Positions 1 through 7,476 of a DNA stretch of 7,476 bases are shown here, in pieces. The position numbers and the translations under genes are program-made. Under the pieces are notes generated by a model, which saw nothing but the letters and a program-made list of their open reading frames with translations, searched no databases and was not told the DNA's origin. The stretch spans positions 1 through 7,476 of the forward strand of contig PWHN01000008.1 in the NCBI GenBank assembly GCA_003554945.1, given 5' to 3'. Origin of the DNA: a bacterium (GTDB taxonomy: Bacteria > T1Sed10-126). Numbering within the stretch: the stretch's first letter is position 1; every line of letters begins with the position of its first letter.

Positions 1-110
1 ATATCTTATTTTCTCATTCTCATCCCGCCTCCAGCGGGACTCCGAGGTATGTATTCTTCAAAACAGGCCCCTCCAGGGCCTTGAAGAATACATAAATCCG
101 AAAATAAGAC
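1..110 (+). repeat. Structured palindromic element, copy A (possible ncRNA or MITE-like repeat)
   Basis: This is a multi-stem fold that shares a skeleton with the element at 3620-3748. The outer stem P1 pairs 4-13 (TCTTATTTTC) with 100-109 (GAAAATAAGA). Hairpin P2 pairs TCCCGC (23-28) with GCGGGA (34-39) around loop CTCCA. Hairpin P3 pairs TATGTATTCTTCAA (48-61) with TTGAAGAATACATA (81-94), and an inner stem GGCCC/GGGCC closes a second CTCCA loop. Blocks shared with the other copy are TCTCATTCTC (12-21), CTCCGAGG (40-47) and AATCCGA (95-101). The window edge probably cuts the outer stem, because the second copy has another 12 bp outside P1. Whether it is transcribed is unknown. It lies about 140 bp upstream of cysS, but the second copy has no comparable position before a gene, so a riboswitch role is unlikely. 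Confidence 0.8.
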
Positions 111-113
111 ATG

Positions 114-253
114 ACCTATCTCTCTCTATACGCTTATTTTTGGTCAAGAAGGTAATGGATCCTACTTTGTTAAATAAACGGTCGTTCTGAGAACGGGGAA
201 ACTGCAAAACTTTAGACAAGTCAATAAATAACAAAATAAAAGGAGAATGGAAG
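114..253 (+). promoter_or_regulatory. cysS upstream region with a short palindrome
   Basis: This is the leader between the structured element and cysS. It contains a 13-base palindrome, CGTTCTGAGAACG (183-195), which could be a small operator or a weak hairpin. No T-box signature (AGGGTGG-type block with an antiterminator) is visible, although T-boxes often control aminoacyl-tRNA synthetase genes in Firmicutes. I found no convincing -35/-10 pair. The Shine-Dalgarno AAGGAG sits just before the cysS ATG at 254. Confidence 0.3.
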
Positions 254-1696
254 ATGTCCAAGCTAAATGTTTACAACACACTTACAAATAAAACTGAAGA
301 GTTCGAACCCCAGAACTCACCTGAGGTGCGCATGTATGTCTGTGGACCGACGGTTTATGATGACTGTCACGTCGGCCACGCCCGGGCCTACGTGAGTTTT
401 GACGTTATCCGCCGTTTTCTGGAATATGAGGGCTACCGGGTAAAATATGTGCAAAACTTCACCGATATTGACGACAAGACAATTAATCGCGCCAAAGAAG
501 AGGCAGTCCCTTTTCGTGAAATTGCCGAGCGCTATACCCGGCGGTATTTTGATGTGATGGATGCTATCGGTGTGCAGAGGGCCGACTTGTATCCTACCGT
601 GAGTGGCCACGTTGAAGAGGTAATCGACCACGTTCAGGGGTTGATTGAAGCCGGCATGGCTTACCAGGTTGAGGGTGACGTATACTACCGGGTGAAAGAG
701 TTTGCCAATTATGGTTGTCTTTCCGGCCAGGATATAGAGGAAATGCTTGAAGGCGAGCGGGTTGAACCTTCGGCCAAAAAGGAGTCGCCGCTGGATTTTG
801 CTCTCTGGAAGCGTTCCCCGGAAGATGAGCCCGGCTGGGAAAGTCCCTGGGGACGTGGGCGTCCTGGCTGGCACATTGAGTGCTCTGTCATGGGCCGTAC
901 ACATCTCGGCGATACAATTGATATTCACGGTGGCGGTCAGGATTTAATTTTTCCCCACCATGAGAACGAAATAGCTCAGACTGAAGGGTTGACCGGCAGC
1001 CAGTTTGTTAAATACTGGCTCCACAACGGTTTTGTCACGATTGATGACGATAAGATGTCCAAGTCTCTTGGTAATTTCTATACTCTTGAGGAACTCTATG
1101 AGCAGTTTTCACCGGCGGTAATTCGTTATTTCATCTTAACCCGGCAGTATAGGAATCCAATCGACTTTTCCTTCGGAAGAATTGAGGAGGCCGGCCGGGC
1201 CTACACCAGGCTTAAAAAGTTTTTTGTCCGCTTGAAAAGAGCTGAAGCGAAATCCTGTGGACCGGTTAAAGTGCAGTCCGACCTGCCAGACAATTCGGAG
1301 TTCAGGGAAAAATTTCTTGCCGCCATGCGCGCTGATTTCAACACCGCCAGGGCACTGGGCGAAATCAGTAGCTGGATGAAACAGTGGAATGAAACTCTTG
1401 AAAGCTGGCGTGATCGCAAGCAGATAAATCGTCGTGAACAGGAAGCGGTAACCGAAGCTCGACATCTGCTGGATAAATTCACTTCCAAAGTGCTTGGGTT
1501 GGAGCTTGTTGACACATCTGAAGCGGGTTCTAATAATGAGGAGGATTTGATCGAGTTGTTAATTGAACTGCGCAGCCAGGCCCGGGAAAACGGCGATTAT
1601 GAGCGGGCTGATGAAATTCGTGAGCGTCTGCGGGGACTTGGATATGAGCTACATGATTCTTCTGAAGGAACCCGCTGGGAGCTTAAAAATGGCTGA
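254..1696 (+). CDS. cysS: Cysteinyl-tRNA synthetase (CysRS)
   Basis: This cytoplasmic class I aminoacyl-tRNA synthetase charges tRNA-Cys with cysteine using ATP. The 480-residue length is normal for the family. The Rossmann-fold signature HVGH (residues 39-42, HIGH class) and KMSKS (267-271) are both intact. The four zinc ligands that select cysteine are present as C30, C210, H235 and E239, inside VCGPT, HIECSVM and FPHHENE. The N-terminal YVCGPTVYD and the NFTDIDDK block (68-75) are also typical. The C-terminal helical tRNA-binding part ends in the usual ADEIRERLRGLGYEL...GTRW pattern. The start follows AAGGAG with good spacing. The gene overlaps rlmB by 8 bp and is first in a three-gene plus-strand cluster. 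Nothing is missing, and the identification is certain at family level. Confidence 0.98.
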   Translation: MSKLNVYNTLTNKTEEFEPQNSPEVRMYVCGPTVYDDCHVGHARAYVSFDVIRRFLEYEGYRVKYVQNFTDIDDKTINRAKEEAVPFREIAERYTRRYFDVMDAIGVQRADLYPTVSGHVEEVIDHVQGLIEAGMAYQVEGDVYYRVKEFANYGCLSGQDIEEMLEGERVEPSAKKESPLDFALWKRSPEDEPGWESPWGRGRPGWHIECSVMGRTHLGDTIDIHGGGQDLIFPHHENEIAQTEGLTGSQFVKYWLHNGFVTIDDDKMSKSLGNFYTLEELYEQFSPAVIRYFILTRQYRNPIDFSFGRIEEAGRAYTRLKKFFVRLKRAEAKSCGPVKVQSDLPDNSEFREKFLAAMRADFNTARALGEISSWMKQWNETLESWRDRKQINRREQEAVTEARHLLDKFTSKVLGLELVDTSEAGSNNEEDLIELLIELRSQARENGDYERADEIRERLRGLGYELHDSSEGTRWELKNG

Positions 1697-2438
1697 TCTT
1701 ATCTGTGGTCGTAACACTGCTCTGGAAGCACTTCGTGCGCGGCCCCGCCAAATTCGTAAGCTTTTTCTTTCAGAAAACGTTGAGCCGGACGAGAAAATAA
1801 AAAATATTCGTTCTCTTGCCCAGGCCGCCGGTATTGAACTGCAAGATCTTTCATCCGCTGAGCTAAGTGAGCTGGTCGGGACTGAAAATCACCAGGGGAT
1901 CGCCGCTCGCACCGAACCACTTTTGCTGGCTAGTCTCACCGAGTTGCTTCAAATTATTGGCAAACCACCGGGTGCCCGTCGACTGGTTGTGCTTGATCGG
2001 GTGCAGGATCCGGTTAATCTTGGCAAAATAATTCGCTCCGCCTGTTATTTTGGCATTGATGGGTTGATTAAAACTGAACATGAATCAGCCCCCTTAACCG
2101 CGACGGCTGTTCATACCTCGGCCGGAGCCGCCTTCCACCTTCCCCTGCTTGAAGTTTCCAACCTGCAAAATCTTTTTGCTCAGCTGAAGGAGGAACGTTT
2201 TTGGATAGTAGGCACGGCACCCGAAGCTGAACAGGTCCTGGATGCAGTGCCACTCGACCGTGACCTTGTTTATGTGCTTGGACACGAGGGTGAAGGATTG
2301 CGGCGTCTCACACGCGAACTGACTGATTACCTGGTCTGTATCCCCTCTTCCGGTGACTTTGATTCGCTGAACGTAGCAACGGCAGCCGCTGTTGTTGCTT
2401 ATGCCCTGCGCCCGCCGGGGAGTGAGGACTATGGCTGA
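1689..2438 (+). CDS. rlmB: SpoU-family 23S rRNA 2'-O-ribose methyltransferase, RlmB type
   Basis: This is a SAM-dependent SPOUT methyltransferase of 249 residues. RlmB-type enzymes methylate the 2'-OH of G2251 in the 23S rRNA P loop. The N-terminal ~75 residues fit the substrate-binding domain, starting with LICGRNTALEAL. The three SpoU motifs follow: LDRVQDPVNLGKIIRSA (102-118, with N110 and R117), VYVLGHEGEGLRRL (195-208, with E200), and CIPSSGDFDSLNVATA (217-232, with S226 and N228). The deep trefoil knot would be formed by the last two. An open frame extends upstream to 1563, but the ATG at 1689 is chosen because it gives the canonical N-terminus and is preceded by GGGAG seven bases upstream. 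It overlaps cysS by 8 bp, and cysS-rlmB adjacency is common in bacteria. The exact target nucleotide is inferred from the family. Confidence 0.93.
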   Translation: MADLICGRNTALEALRARPRQIRKLFLSENVEPDEKIKNIRSLAQAAGIELQDLSSAELSELVGTENHQGIAARTEPLLLASLTELLQIIGKPPGARRLVVLDRVQDPVNLGKIIRSACYFGIDGLIKTEHESAPLTATAVHTSAGAAFHLPLLEVSNLQNLFAQLKEERFWIVGTAPEAEQVLDAVPLDRDLVYVLGHEGEGLRRLTRELTDYLVCIPSSGDFDSLNVATAAAVVAYALRPPGSEDYG

Positions 2439-3585
2439 AAAGGAACTGCGCAGTTTTTTAAATCACATGCGAGCAAAGCTTTATCCTGAACCTGAAGCAA
2501 AAGTGACTGATCCTCATTCACCACCCCTCTGGAAGCGGTTAGGCTGGAAGGTGGGCTGGATTATCGAGGAGTCCTACACCGGCATACAGTGGTGCCTTAC
2601 GGATGAGGAGAACTGGGAAAAACTCACTTCGCATCTCGGTAACAATCGCCAGCAGAAGACGCAAATGTTTGTCAACTGGTATTCGCGAACTCTGAAAAAA
2701 CTGGCAGACAATTTTGGTGTACCTCTCCGCCTCGAATCAATCCGCTGGCGGCAGATTGACCTTTCTGCTATCGTCAACCGGCCTCGTATCCAGGACGAGA
2801 CCTGGTGGGAGATATCCTTTACTGACGATGAACTCGGAACCTGGTATTTGATAATACCACAACGTTTTCACCACCTGTTTGAGGAGGAAGAGACAGCGCC
2901 GGCCCAGGCCCGCCCTTCCTGGCATTTTTCCGAACTATGGAAAAAACTTGAAGATCGCCAGTGTCGGCGTTTGCTGGAGCTGATTGCACCCCATAGGGGA
3001 CTTCGCAATCATGTGGCTGCCCTTATTATTGGTGGTGTGCTGGAGTCGGAAAATGTTTTTGAACATCTGCCGGCGACACCGTCGGGAGAACTTAAAACTG
3101 CGCTTCACAAGCGCCGCCGGATGCTCGATAAGCAGACCAACCGTCAGCGCGAACAGACGCTAAAACAGTGGGCTAAAGACGCTGATTTTTACTTGACCCG
3201 GAAGCTGGGCAAGTGGTTGGAAGAAGAGAAATTGAAAGGGGAGGGCTGGCAAAAATATCGCGCCGACTGGAAACAGTTTCGGATAAAACAGCTTGAAAAA
3301 AATTATGGAGCCGACAACTGGCGGCAATTCTGGAAACAATTTGATGATCAAGATCTGAAACATATTGTTCCGCGTCTCAATTTTGAACAGTTGAGCCGCG
3401 CGGCGATAAAACTTTCCGAAAAACAACGCAGCCGAATTGCCGGTGAACTGCCAGCTCAGCAGCAAGAAAAATTTAAAAAAATGTCCGCCCGCGGCCCCGA
3501 CCGCGAGCTGATCTTAAAAGCCCGCCAGGAAATACACGAACAGGTCGAGGAAATCGCCGACAAACACAATTTGCTCGATAGTTAG
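2431..3585 (+). CDS. Tryptophan-rich protein with a FliG C-terminal-like domain, function unknown
   Basis: This 384-residue soluble protein has no signal peptide or membrane segment. I do not recognise the whole. Residues 30-150 are rich in Trp and aromatic residues and look like a mixed alpha/beta domain (for example WWEISFTDDELGTWYLIIP, 125-143). Residues 165-230 are helical, with NHVAALIIGGVLESENVFEH (193-212) vaguely like an armadillo helix pair. Residues 230-300 are highly charged, lysine-rich helices. Residues 302-378 match the pattern of FliG-C: FDDQDLKHIVPRLN, then LSRAAIKLSE, then RIAGELPAQQQEKFKKM, then KARQEIHEQVEEIAD. FliG-C is the flagellar switch domain that contacts the stator, but no flagellar genes lie here. 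I count 18 tryptophans, which is unusually many. The ATG at 2431 overlaps the rlmB stop by 8 bp and follows GGGGAG, so I prefer it to an upstream in-frame ATG inside rlmB. The FliG relation is from memory of the family pattern. Confidence 0.85.
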   Translation: MAEKELRSFLNHMRAKLYPEPEAKVTDPHSPPLWKRLGWKVGWIIEESYTGIQWCLTDEENWEKLTSHLGNNRQQKTQMFVNWYSRTLKKLADNFGVPLRLESIRWRQIDLSAIVNRPRIQDETWWEISFTDDELGTWYLIIPQRFHHLFEEEETAPAQARPSWHFSELWKKLEDRQCRRLLELIAPHRGLRNHVAALIIGGVLESENVFEHLPATPSGELKTALHKRRRMLDKQTNRQREQTLKQWAKDADFYLTRKLGKWLEEEKLKGEGWQKYRADWKQFRIKQLEKNYGADNWRQFWKQFDDQDLKHIVPRLNFEQLSRAAIKLSEKQRSRIAGELPAQQQEKFKKMSARGPDRELILKARQEIHEQVEEIADKHNLLDS

Positions 3586-3619
3586 TCCTTATCTTTCTTC
3601 CCCCACCAATCCGTTTACA

Positions 3620-3748
3620 AATGAAGGAGGTGCTTATTATCGGATTTTTAAATCTCGCTGGAAACAGGATGTTTCTGTTTTGCGTTATTTAAACCTCGGA
3701 GCGGCCTGGATGGCCGCGAGAATGAGATAATAAGATACCTCCTTCATT
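3620..3748 (-). repeat. Structured palindromic element, copy B (possible ncRNA or MITE-like repeat)
   Basis: Read on the minus strand, this has the same skeleton as the element at 1-110. The outermost arm AATGAAGGAGGT (plus strand 3620-3631) pairs perfectly with 3737-3748. P1 pairs CTTATTATC (3633-3641) with GATAATAAG (3726-3734). P2 pairs 3701-3706 with 3712-3717 (minus strand GCGGCC/GGCCGC) around loop ATCCA. P3 pairs TTTAAAT (3647-3653) with ATTTAAA (3687-3693), with apical stem GAAAC/GTTTC (3661-3665/3671-3675) and minus-strand loop ATCCT. Minus-strand blocks TCTCATTCTC, CTCCGAGG and AATCCGA are shared with the first copy. The element sits between the convergent ends of the FliG-like gene and the phosphatase gene, so it may also stop transcription or protect 3' ends, although no T tract follows. 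Confidence 0.85.
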
Positions 3749-5016: not shown

Positions 5017-5060
5017 TTAGTATGAAAGTGTGAAAGTGGGAAAGTATGAAAGTAAAATCA
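5017..5060 (+). repeat. Left inverted repeat of the four-helix-bundle island (8-bp units)
   Basis: This is a 44-bp sequence starting TTAG and containing four 8-bp units ending in GAAAGT (ATGAAAGT, GTGAAAGT, GGGAAAGT, ATGAAAGT) followed by AAAATCA. By hand comparison it matches the reverse complement of 5758-5801 at 38 of 44 positions. It starts four bases after the tRNA-Thr end. Confidence 0.8.
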
Positions 5061-5486: not shown

Positions 5487-5574
5487 TTTTGAAATTTTTA
5501 ATTGAAAATTAAGAGGGATACTGATAAAATGTATAGTCAAGAGATGAACTTGCATTTTTGTAAAAAGTTTATTG

Positions 5575-5802
5575 ACCGAAGTTGATTTTATGGTTTTACT
5601 TTCAAACTTTCTAACTTTCACACTTTCTAACTAATACCGAAGTTGATTTTATGGTTTTACTTTCACACTTTCTAACTTTCACACTTTCTAACTAATACCG
5701 AAGTTGATTTTATGGTTTTACTTTCACACTTTCTAACTAATACCGAAGTTGATTTTATGGTTTTACTTTCACACTTTCTAACTTTCACACTTTCTAACTA
5801 AT
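5575..5802 (+). repeat. Four-copy 61-bp tandem repeat with nested 8-bp units
   Basis: Copies begin with ACCGAAGTTG at 5575, 5636, 5697 and 5742. The steps are 61, 61, 45 and 61 bp. Each copy is ACCGAAGTTGATTTTATGG followed by TTTTACTTTC and alternating CACTTTCT/AACTTTCA-type 8-bp units. The 45-bp copy lacks exactly 16 bp, or two 8-bp units, as expected from replication slippage or recombination. Copy one has one substitution (TTTCAAAC for TTTCACAC). The array ends a few bases before tRNA-Tyr. It holds no gene. Between the four-helix-bundle stop and the array (5487-5574) there is only AT-rich sequence with a weak stem. Confidence 0.95.
5758..5801 (-). repeat. Right inverted repeat of the four-helix-bundle island
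   Basis: This is part of the last tandem copy. Its reverse complement, starting TTAGTTAGAAAGTG, matches the 44-bp left repeat at 5017-5060 at 38 of 44 positions. It ends six bases before the tRNA-Tyr start, so the two repeats bracket almost exactly the whole inter-tRNA segment. Confidence 0.75.
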
Positions 5803-5807
5803 ACCCC

Positions 5808-7343: not shown

Positions 7344-7440
7344 AAGGGTTCTAATTAGACCCTCTCCGAAAAGGGTTAAACATCTCCTCCCCCTTGAGGG
7401 GGGAGGATTAAGGTGGGGGTGAAGAGGCCTCGTAGAGGCC
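7344..7440. repeat. GC-rich palindromes, dispersed-repeat-like, at the window end
   Basis: Several palindromes follow one another after the zinc-ribbon gene. AAGGGT (7344-7349), ACCCT (7359-7363) and a second AAGGGT (7371-7376) can form alternative stems. TCCTCCCCC (7385-7393) pairs with GGGGGAGGA (7399-7407) around loop TTGAG. GGCCTC (7426-7431) pairs with GAGGCC (7435-7440) around GTA. The sequence AAGGTGGGGGTGA (7410-7422) is answered by TCCCCCTCACCCT near 7463-7475 in inverse orientation, so the repeat may continue past the window. None is followed by a T run, although the first hairpins could help end the upstream transcript. Confidence 0.55.
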
Positions 7441-7476
7441 GAACAACGGTTGTGACGTTTTATCCCCCTCACCCTA

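Follow-up and report, generated by a model that had tools for sequence, protein, structure and literature searches.

Why do two short repeats on either side of a cysS cluster differ in their paired arms while the letters between the arms are the same? In the window analysed here, a stretch of 7,476 nucleotides of bacterial DNA, a sequence-only reading had placed two copies of a covarying multi-stem element at 1-110 and, on the minus strand, at 3620-3748, and both are present (1-112 and 3621-3747 minus; Table 1). The observation is correct and far larger than first reported. The positions given around the cysS cluster are right, but the flanking is incidental, as copies lie at many unrelated loci.

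Both window copies share the order stem P1, TCATTCTC, stem P2, TCCGAGG, stem P3, ANNCC, P1', forming a three-armed DNA repeat of about 150-155 bp per copy, in which the arm sequences vary yet stay paired and the junction letters are fixed. On the strand inferred to fold (the fold strand), copy 1 reads P1-GGATT-P3-CCTCGGA-P2-GAGAATGA-P1' and the consensus of the element P1-CGGWTT-P3-CCTCGGA-P2-GAGAATGA-P1'. The blocks first described as single stranded are indeed fixed, but their outermost bases belong to the stems, so that the unpaired letters are TCATTCTC, TCCGAGG and AATCC. The paired structure itself stands, since each window copy has a stability z of about -9 and none of 200 shuffles is equally stable. 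The compensatory T-A to A-T swap claimed for P1 holds as well, accompanied by eight other two-sided changes between copy 1 and copy 2.

Table 1. Coordinates of the two window copies, their arms and junction blocks, and the end of the composite repeat.
Feature	Position	Strand	Remark
Copy 1 of the three-way-junction element, subfamily a; upstream of cysS	1..112	- (strand inferred to fold)	covariance-model match 64.6 bits, minus strand
Contig start, within the copy 1 repeat	1		
Copy 1 P1 left arm TCTTATTTTC	4..13		pairs with 100-109
Copy 1 junction block TCATTCTC (GAGAATGA on fold strand)	14..21		invariant in cross-phylum alignment (block required by the search pattern)
Copy 1 P2 hairpin TCCCGC-CTCCA-GCGGGA	23..39		arms 23-28/34-39
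Copy 1 junction block TCCGAGG (CCTCGGA on fold strand)	41..47		invariant in cross-phylum alignment (block required by the search pattern)
Copy 1 P3 hairpin, A-rich bulge and inner GGCCC/GGGCC stem	48..94		arms 48-61/81-94
Copy 1 junction block AATCC (GGATT on fold strand)	95..99		ANNCC in most copies
Copy 1 P1 right arm GAAAATAAGA	100..109		pairs with 4-13
Right terminal inverted repeat GCAAAACTTTAG of larger composite repeat; left end beyond contig start	204..215	-	
Copy 2, subfamily c; between two convergent genes	3621..3747	+ (window plus = fold strand)	covariance-model match 64.1 bits, 3627-3740 plus
Copy 2 proximal P1, extended by ATGAAGGAGGT/ACCTCCTTCAT	3633-3641/3726-3734		
Copy 2 junction block GGATT	3642..3646	+	
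Copy 2 junction block CCTCGGA	3694..3700	+	
Copy 2 junction block GAGAATGA	3718..3725	+	

Further copies are numerous. The covariance model finds 44 in the 2.2-Mb genome of the window (all at E <= 2e-4, 41 at E <= 1e-9), and an exact pattern finds 20, its reversed form none. Beyond this genome, the core is present in Nitrospirota (maximum 127 copies per genome), Latescibacterota, Spirochaetes, Sulfurimonas, Proteobacteria and one CPR bacterium; the richest of the other element-bearing genomes hold 127, 88, 69, 51, 48, 35, 35, 34, 29 and 28 copies, with 0 or 1 for the reversed-pattern control. Occurrence across phyla is patchy, and the covariance-model search returned no copies in 58 other genomes, one of them from the same family as the window's genome. 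The original failure to recognise a known family agrees with Rfam 15, which gave no covariance-model match at E <= 1 in the window except two tRNAs, and none in nine other loci. When one window copy was compared by blastn with plasmids and with phages, no match was obtained. Carriage by phages was rejected: at least 120 pattern matches exist in IMG/VR; among the 120 examined, all but 28 failed the score filter, and those 28 appear by eye to be chance matches. The element was not described in the open-licence PMC papers searched by motif and by description, and this repeat family of several phyla appears undescribed.

The covariation expected from the two copies is strong in the alignment, where covariation extends to nearly all stem positions. 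In P2 and P3, pairing at each position examined is well above that in shuffled controls, almost all positions showing all four Watson-Crick types, and neither stem played any part in selecting the copies for this test. RNAalifold independently recovers P1, P2 and the junction, with two-sided changes in 15 of 19 pairs, and adds invariant GG/CC and UC/GA pairs. The P1 arms also covary from copy to copy and, in genomes other than the window's, form the ends of the element. Some 20 letters of the junction are constant from phylum to phylum, the invariance of TCATTCTC and TCCGAGG being that of alignment members found with a pattern that itself requires both blocks.

The copies are not static. Near-identical copies occur at unrelated sites in the window's genome, and copies sit within the P2 or P3 hairpins of others (nested a/b and c/e, plus an insert in b). 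Two close Nitrospirota species share 34 orthologous sites, at which the element is the same in 22, inverted in 9 and absent or altered in 3; thus 31 sites keep a copy in both species, and 9 of these 31 are inverted in place. Whole single hairpins have been exchanged between orthologous sites, and arm-to-arm compensatory changes are seen as well. Eight sites in genome G065 comprise a few clean absences and others that are remnant or rearranged; no clean empty site with a target duplication was found among them, and the remnants at several 'empty' sites point to loss rather than gain.

The best explanation, which we hold at about an even chance, is a mobile hairpin repeat, dispersed and non-autonomous, that behaves like a REPIN and has its identity in the three-way junction rather than in its ends. 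The fixed single-stranded junction letters would tie together three stems that are free in sequence as long as pairing holds, and we infer that recognition is of the fold strand in single-stranded form. The element may be moved or copied as folded DNA by a trans-acting factor whose gene lies elsewhere in the cell, in a role parallel to that thought for RAYT on REPINs; candidates are a nuclease of the HUH type, some other recombinase or a junction-processing enzyme of the host. From one jump to the next, flipping of the inside would be enabled by the long inverted repeat of P1, and hairpins could be exchanged through short-homology recombination or template switching. The sequence-only interpretation is supported as a whole, since none of the outcomes it named as refuting (a lack of further copies, a lack of significant covariation, a match to a described element) appeared, and among its three options (a structured non-coding RNA, a MITE-like element recognised by shape, or a replication or recombination signal) the second is the best supported. 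More tentatively, we suggest a new class of mobile elements in several phyla, with a folded three-way junction of single-stranded DNA or RNA recognised by a putative trans-acting enzyme, insertion preferring hairpins, and in-place flipping and hairpin exchange.

The strand and the nature of the folded molecule bear on this explanation. On the strand first read, internal P1 mismatches in unique contexts comprise 91 A.C against 21 G.T (p=1e-11), a bias that is lacking in the count without flank filtering and emerges once it is restricted to internal mismatches. The excess of A.C over G.T recurs in each of the eight genome groups, and therefore the opposite strand is probably the folding one. Any scoring bias works against the A.C excess, because the stem aligner weighted both mismatches equally and G.T was the one favoured by the copy finder. 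P1 shows the asymmetry clearly; P2 and P3, with their few events, do not show it. In 36 of 88 and 31 of 69 copies of two Nitrospirota, P2 has shrunk to GCTNYGC, which on the fold strand is essentially GCGNAGC. As GCGNAGC is an exceptionally stable DNA mini-hairpin, this was counted for DNA rather than RNA, and the element probably acts as folded single-stranded DNA.

Two other readings are possible, a structured RNA and a repeat in which recombination alone maintains the pairing. In the first, which we consider unlikely, an RNA made from the fold strand would serve the host or be the intermediate through which the element spreads; a k-turn-like GGA/GA at the P2 base and GGA or GNRA-like loops (CsrA-type sites) would, with the same low likelihood, bind protein. 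Wobble tolerated on one strand only, in P1, is typical of RNA, GGA, GNA and GNNA abound in the P2 loops of the fold strand, and the stems covary across phyla. However, wobbles make up only about 1% of P1 pairs, P2 is often down to a two-base-pair stem, the fold strand has no promoter-like excess upstream and carries no promoter or terminator signal, and both the in-place inversions and the missing Rfam match count against an RNA. Orientation to genes speaks against it too: in tandem-gene contexts copies lie mostly in the genes' sense (35:13 and 33:2 in two Nitrospirota, 8:2 in the window's genome), so that in the groups showing a bias the fold strand runs antisense to the flanking genes, and no orientation is common to all genome groups. 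This bias is not predicted by simple mobility either. A CsrA-binding sRNA built on GGA loops was rejected as not universal, the G061/G065 family being mostly without them, and so was a transcription terminator, as divergent contexts are not strongly avoided (27 divergent, 33 convergent, 129 tandem). A lagging-strand insertion bias was likewise set aside; the GC-skew bias is weak (88:57) and arises at least partly from orientation with genes.

In the second reading, which strikes us as improbable, the repeat is passive: template switching and inversion copy arm onto arm and ectopic gene conversion swaps hairpins, with no recognising factor. The in-place inversions, arm-to-arm changes and hairpin swaps at orthologous sites accord with it, as does the left arm often beginning at a stop codon, but it fails to explain some 20 junction letters fixed across phyla amid change elsewhere, the one-sided wobble tolerance, or the patchy cross-phylum occurrence and spread to unrelated sites. 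Very improbable is an end-driven MITE moved by an ordinary DDE transposase, with true ends CTAAAGTTTTGC...GCAAAACTTTAG in the window's genome and the junction as a passenger: a larger composite repeat there does house subfamilies a, b and d between conserved CTAAAGTTTTGC inverted ends 230-420 bp apart, but subfamily e has different outer ends around the same core, the P1 arms that form the ends elsewhere vary by copy, which a sequence-specific transposase would not tolerate, and no autonomous element with such ends was seen in this assembly of 121 contigs.

The mobile hairpin repeat we prefer was also examined for a linked partner. Clustering of flanking ORFs revealed no linked transposase or other gene; the clusters are housekeeping genes, each beside few copies. 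Nor does a promoter accompany the element. RAYT/Y1_Tnp was rejected in this role, since most genomes have it, but unlinked to the element, and its frequency is nearly as high in genomes that lack the element (22 of 25 genomes with the element, 39 of 58 without); three element-bearing genomes have no Y1 transposase at all, and no element lies within about 1.5 kb of 35 Y1_Tnp genes in element-bearing genomes.

Like REPINs and REPs with their RAYTs, the element is short, extragenic, non-autonomous and present in tens to hundreds of hairpin-forming copies, folding as single-stranded DNA or RNA and often set in inverted doublets (PMC3116915, PMC3733652), as in genome G082, where pairs lie about 350 bp apart. 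REPs, however, are single hairpins of 20-40 bp tagged by GTAG or CGTC, whereas the element is a covarying three-way junction of about 155 bp with about 20 fixed letters (TCATTCTC, TCCGAGG, ANNCC), lacks the terminal tetranucleotide, and has no copy near a Y1 transposase gene of the RAYT kind; some REP classes (CGTC) are also found without a linked transposase (PMC3733652). MITEs (Correia, ERIC, Nezha and similar) are likewise small, non-autonomous and intergenic, with long inverted repeats and nested insertions, but their terminal inverted repeats are conserved in sequence, shared with an autonomous element and accompanied by target duplications, whereas here the arms covary between copies and no target duplication was seen. 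Integron attC sites and AAV-type T-shaped terminal repeats are analogies, recognised by shape as a folded single strand with variable stems and few fixed unpaired letters, the T consisting of two inner hairpins on a long stem. The fixed letters of the element do not show the attC R/L boxes RYYYAAC/GTTRRRY, integron cassettes are not seen, and no gene family recurs beside its copies; unlike the AAV-type repeats it is neither terminal nor viral, and no associated integrase or Rep was found. BOX repeats are not known outside streptococci, and the core letters are unlike any known BOX module. The BOX of Streptococcus pneumoniae is similarly a modular structured repeat with a predicted RNA/DNA fold, inner modules varying in number or identity and no proven mobiliser, but its modules are conserved in sequence, whereas the element has interchangeable stems, a junction that alone is conserved, and several phyla as hosts (PMC3049150).

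A repeat that exceeds 100 copies in one 2-Mb genome and ranges over several phyla has apparently been overlooked until now, because its stems share no sequence and sequence-based repeat finders miss the family. Its variable paired arms and fixed junction point to a mobile or structured element of a kind not described before, with recognition through the folded shape, and show that a junction can carry the identity of a repeat. The two close species with 31 shared sites are a ready comparative system for measuring the flipping and swapping of hairpin DNA. If the mobiliser were found, a shape-guided transposition system would be added to the RAYT and IS200/IS605 kinds.

Both copies of the element in the window fold as the sequence-only reading had claimed, and their stems and blocks were located in the order P1 - TCATTCTC - P2 - TCCGAGG - P3 - AATCC - P1' along the strand of that reading (the reader's strand). 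The stability of the two folds lies about 9 standard deviations above that of shuffled sequence, and no match to either element was found in Rfam. Among 276 well-paired copies, the element has a median size of 155 bases and 26 Watson-Crick pairs in P1. Covariation, which had been proposed from the two copies, is present in all stems: pairing at each P2 and P3 position examined is well above shuffles in copies chosen with no regard to P2/P3 pairing, and all four Watson-Crick pairs occur at almost all of these positions. RNAalifold, unaided, recovers P1, P2 and two invariant two-pair junction helices (GG/CC and UC/GA). An alignment of 27 sequences has just three invariant blocks, CGG, CCTCGGA and GAGAATGA as read on the opposite strand, and the absolute invariance of the last two is partly built in, because the search pattern required both.

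Positions of the element copies and other features in the window
Feature	Position	Orientation	Remark
Element copy 1	1-112		
Element copy 2	3621-3747	opposite strand to copy 1	
ACTTTCACACTTTCTAACTAATACCGAAGTTGATTTTATGG copy	5017-5060	inverted	near the other tRNA gene
ORF, 120 aa	5124-5486		resembles, by eye, 23S rRNA intervening-sequence proteins (four-helix bundle)
Tandem array of ACTTTCACACTTTCTAACTAATACCGAAGTTGATTTTATGG units	5553-5805		directly upstream of a tRNA gene
Contig end, CTCGTAGAGGCCGAACAACGGTTGTGACGTTTTAT..CCCCTCACCC	7430-7476		

When the window's genome (2.2 Mb in 121 contigs) was searched with an exact pattern, 20 copies emerged and the reversed control gave no match; the pattern likewise has no match in 58 other genomes. 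A covariance model made from 27 diverse copies extended the count to 44, so that the expected further copies were indeed found, and again gave none in the 58 genomes, including one from the window's family. Degenerate-core variants (TCATTCTTG... and subfamily b with a P2 insert; loci L573, L568, L577 and L580) escape exact patterns. Contigs end inside subfamily a copies at copy 1, the end of C34 and the starts of C106 and C114; the repeat thus interrupts the assembly, which probably underestimates the number of copies. The other end of the window's contig recurs in locus L157 and therefore belongs to a repeat as well, one of another kind. Across named genomes, the matches listed mix chance matches with true copies, told apart by the pairing of P2, P3 and P1; among them, true copies lie chiefly in Nitrospirota/Thermodesulfovibrionales, with further hosts in Latescibacterota, Spirochaetes, a deltaproteobacterium, Sulfurimonas, a proteobacterium and a CPR bacterium (Niyogibacteria); whole-genome counts in these hosts reach 127 copies in 2.0 Mb. 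No copy was recognised among the pattern matches listed for viral contigs, nor in plasmids and phages, for which a single window copy each served as blastn query.

Near-identical copies stand in unrelated surroundings in the window's genome. Some copies are nested within hairpins of others: subfamily a houses b in its P2 hairpin (L003, L005-L007), b in turn has a further insert of about 130 bp in its P2 loop (L577), and subfamily c houses e in its P3 hairpin (L150, L151). Larger repeats ending in CTAAAGTTTTGC enclose subfamilies a, b and d, and e has other ends. In another bearer, G082, copies are paired in inverted orientation with a spacing of about 350 bp.

A site-by-site comparison was made between G061 and G065, two closely related Nitrospirota whose flanking genes are mostly 90-98% identical. 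At the 34 G061 sites with both flanks within fetched G065 loci, the counterpart has the same orientation in 22, is inverted in 9 and is missing or altered in 3. At several sites one hairpin was replaced while the remainder stayed nearly the same (P2 at sites 60 and 79, P3 at site 78), and the arms at site 60 changed jointly. Among probed G061 sites lacking a counterpart, some absences are clean, others leave remnants, and no target duplication was found. Opposite sites 35 and 54, G065 holds unrelated repeats (a GGAGGGG inverted repeat and a GTCATTGCGAG repeat), as though repeats of several families could settle at such intergenic spots.

The element lies between genes, its left arm frequently adjoining a stop codon. 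Tandem (129), convergent (33) and divergent (27) neighbours are all common; these and the orientation counts are approximate, with ORFs called simply as the longest non-overlapping frames. Between tandem genes, the reader's strand mostly runs in gene sense in G061 (35:13), G065 (33:2) and the window's genome (8:2), a bias that is strong in G061 and G065; other genomes show none. No recurrent gene family lies beside the copies. Of the 25 element-bearing genomes, 22 have Y1 transposases, against 39 of the 58 without the element, and none of 35 Y1 transposase gene flanks contains the element.

Internal P1 mismatches, counted once per context and with three Watson-Crick pairs required on either side, are mostly A.C on the reader's strand (91, vs 21 G.T; p=1e-11), an excess seen in each of the eight genome groups. 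Read on the opposite strand, such an A.C becomes G.T or G.U; that strand, P1-CGGWTT-P3-CCTCGGA-P2-GAGAATGA-P1', is therefore likely the one that folds. The few mismatches in P2 and P3 show no strand asymmetry. On the fold strand, GGA, GNA and GNNA are abundant in the P2 loops. In two Nitrospirota, P2 is shortened to GCTNYGC in 36 of 88 and 31 of 69 copies, which on the fold strand is essentially GCGNAGC, an exceptionally stable mini-hairpin as DNA and a weak one as RNA. Together with upstream sequence showing no promoter-like excess on the fold strand, this makes single-stranded DNA the likelier folded form and RNA a less likely one.

In behaviour the element resembles a REPIN or MITE, but defining features of both are lacking. 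Unlike REPIN/REP sequences, it has no GTAG/CGTC tag or linked RAYT, although palindromic repeats with no linked transposase have a precedent in CGTC-type REPs (PMC3733652); unlike in MITEs, its ends are not conserved in sequence from copy to copy. No target duplication was seen at the sites examined. It is best read as a shape-coded, non-autonomous mobile hairpin repeat with a putative mobiliser, which would recognise the junction of the folded strand, probably as DNA, while recombination may account for both in-place flipping and hairpin exchange.
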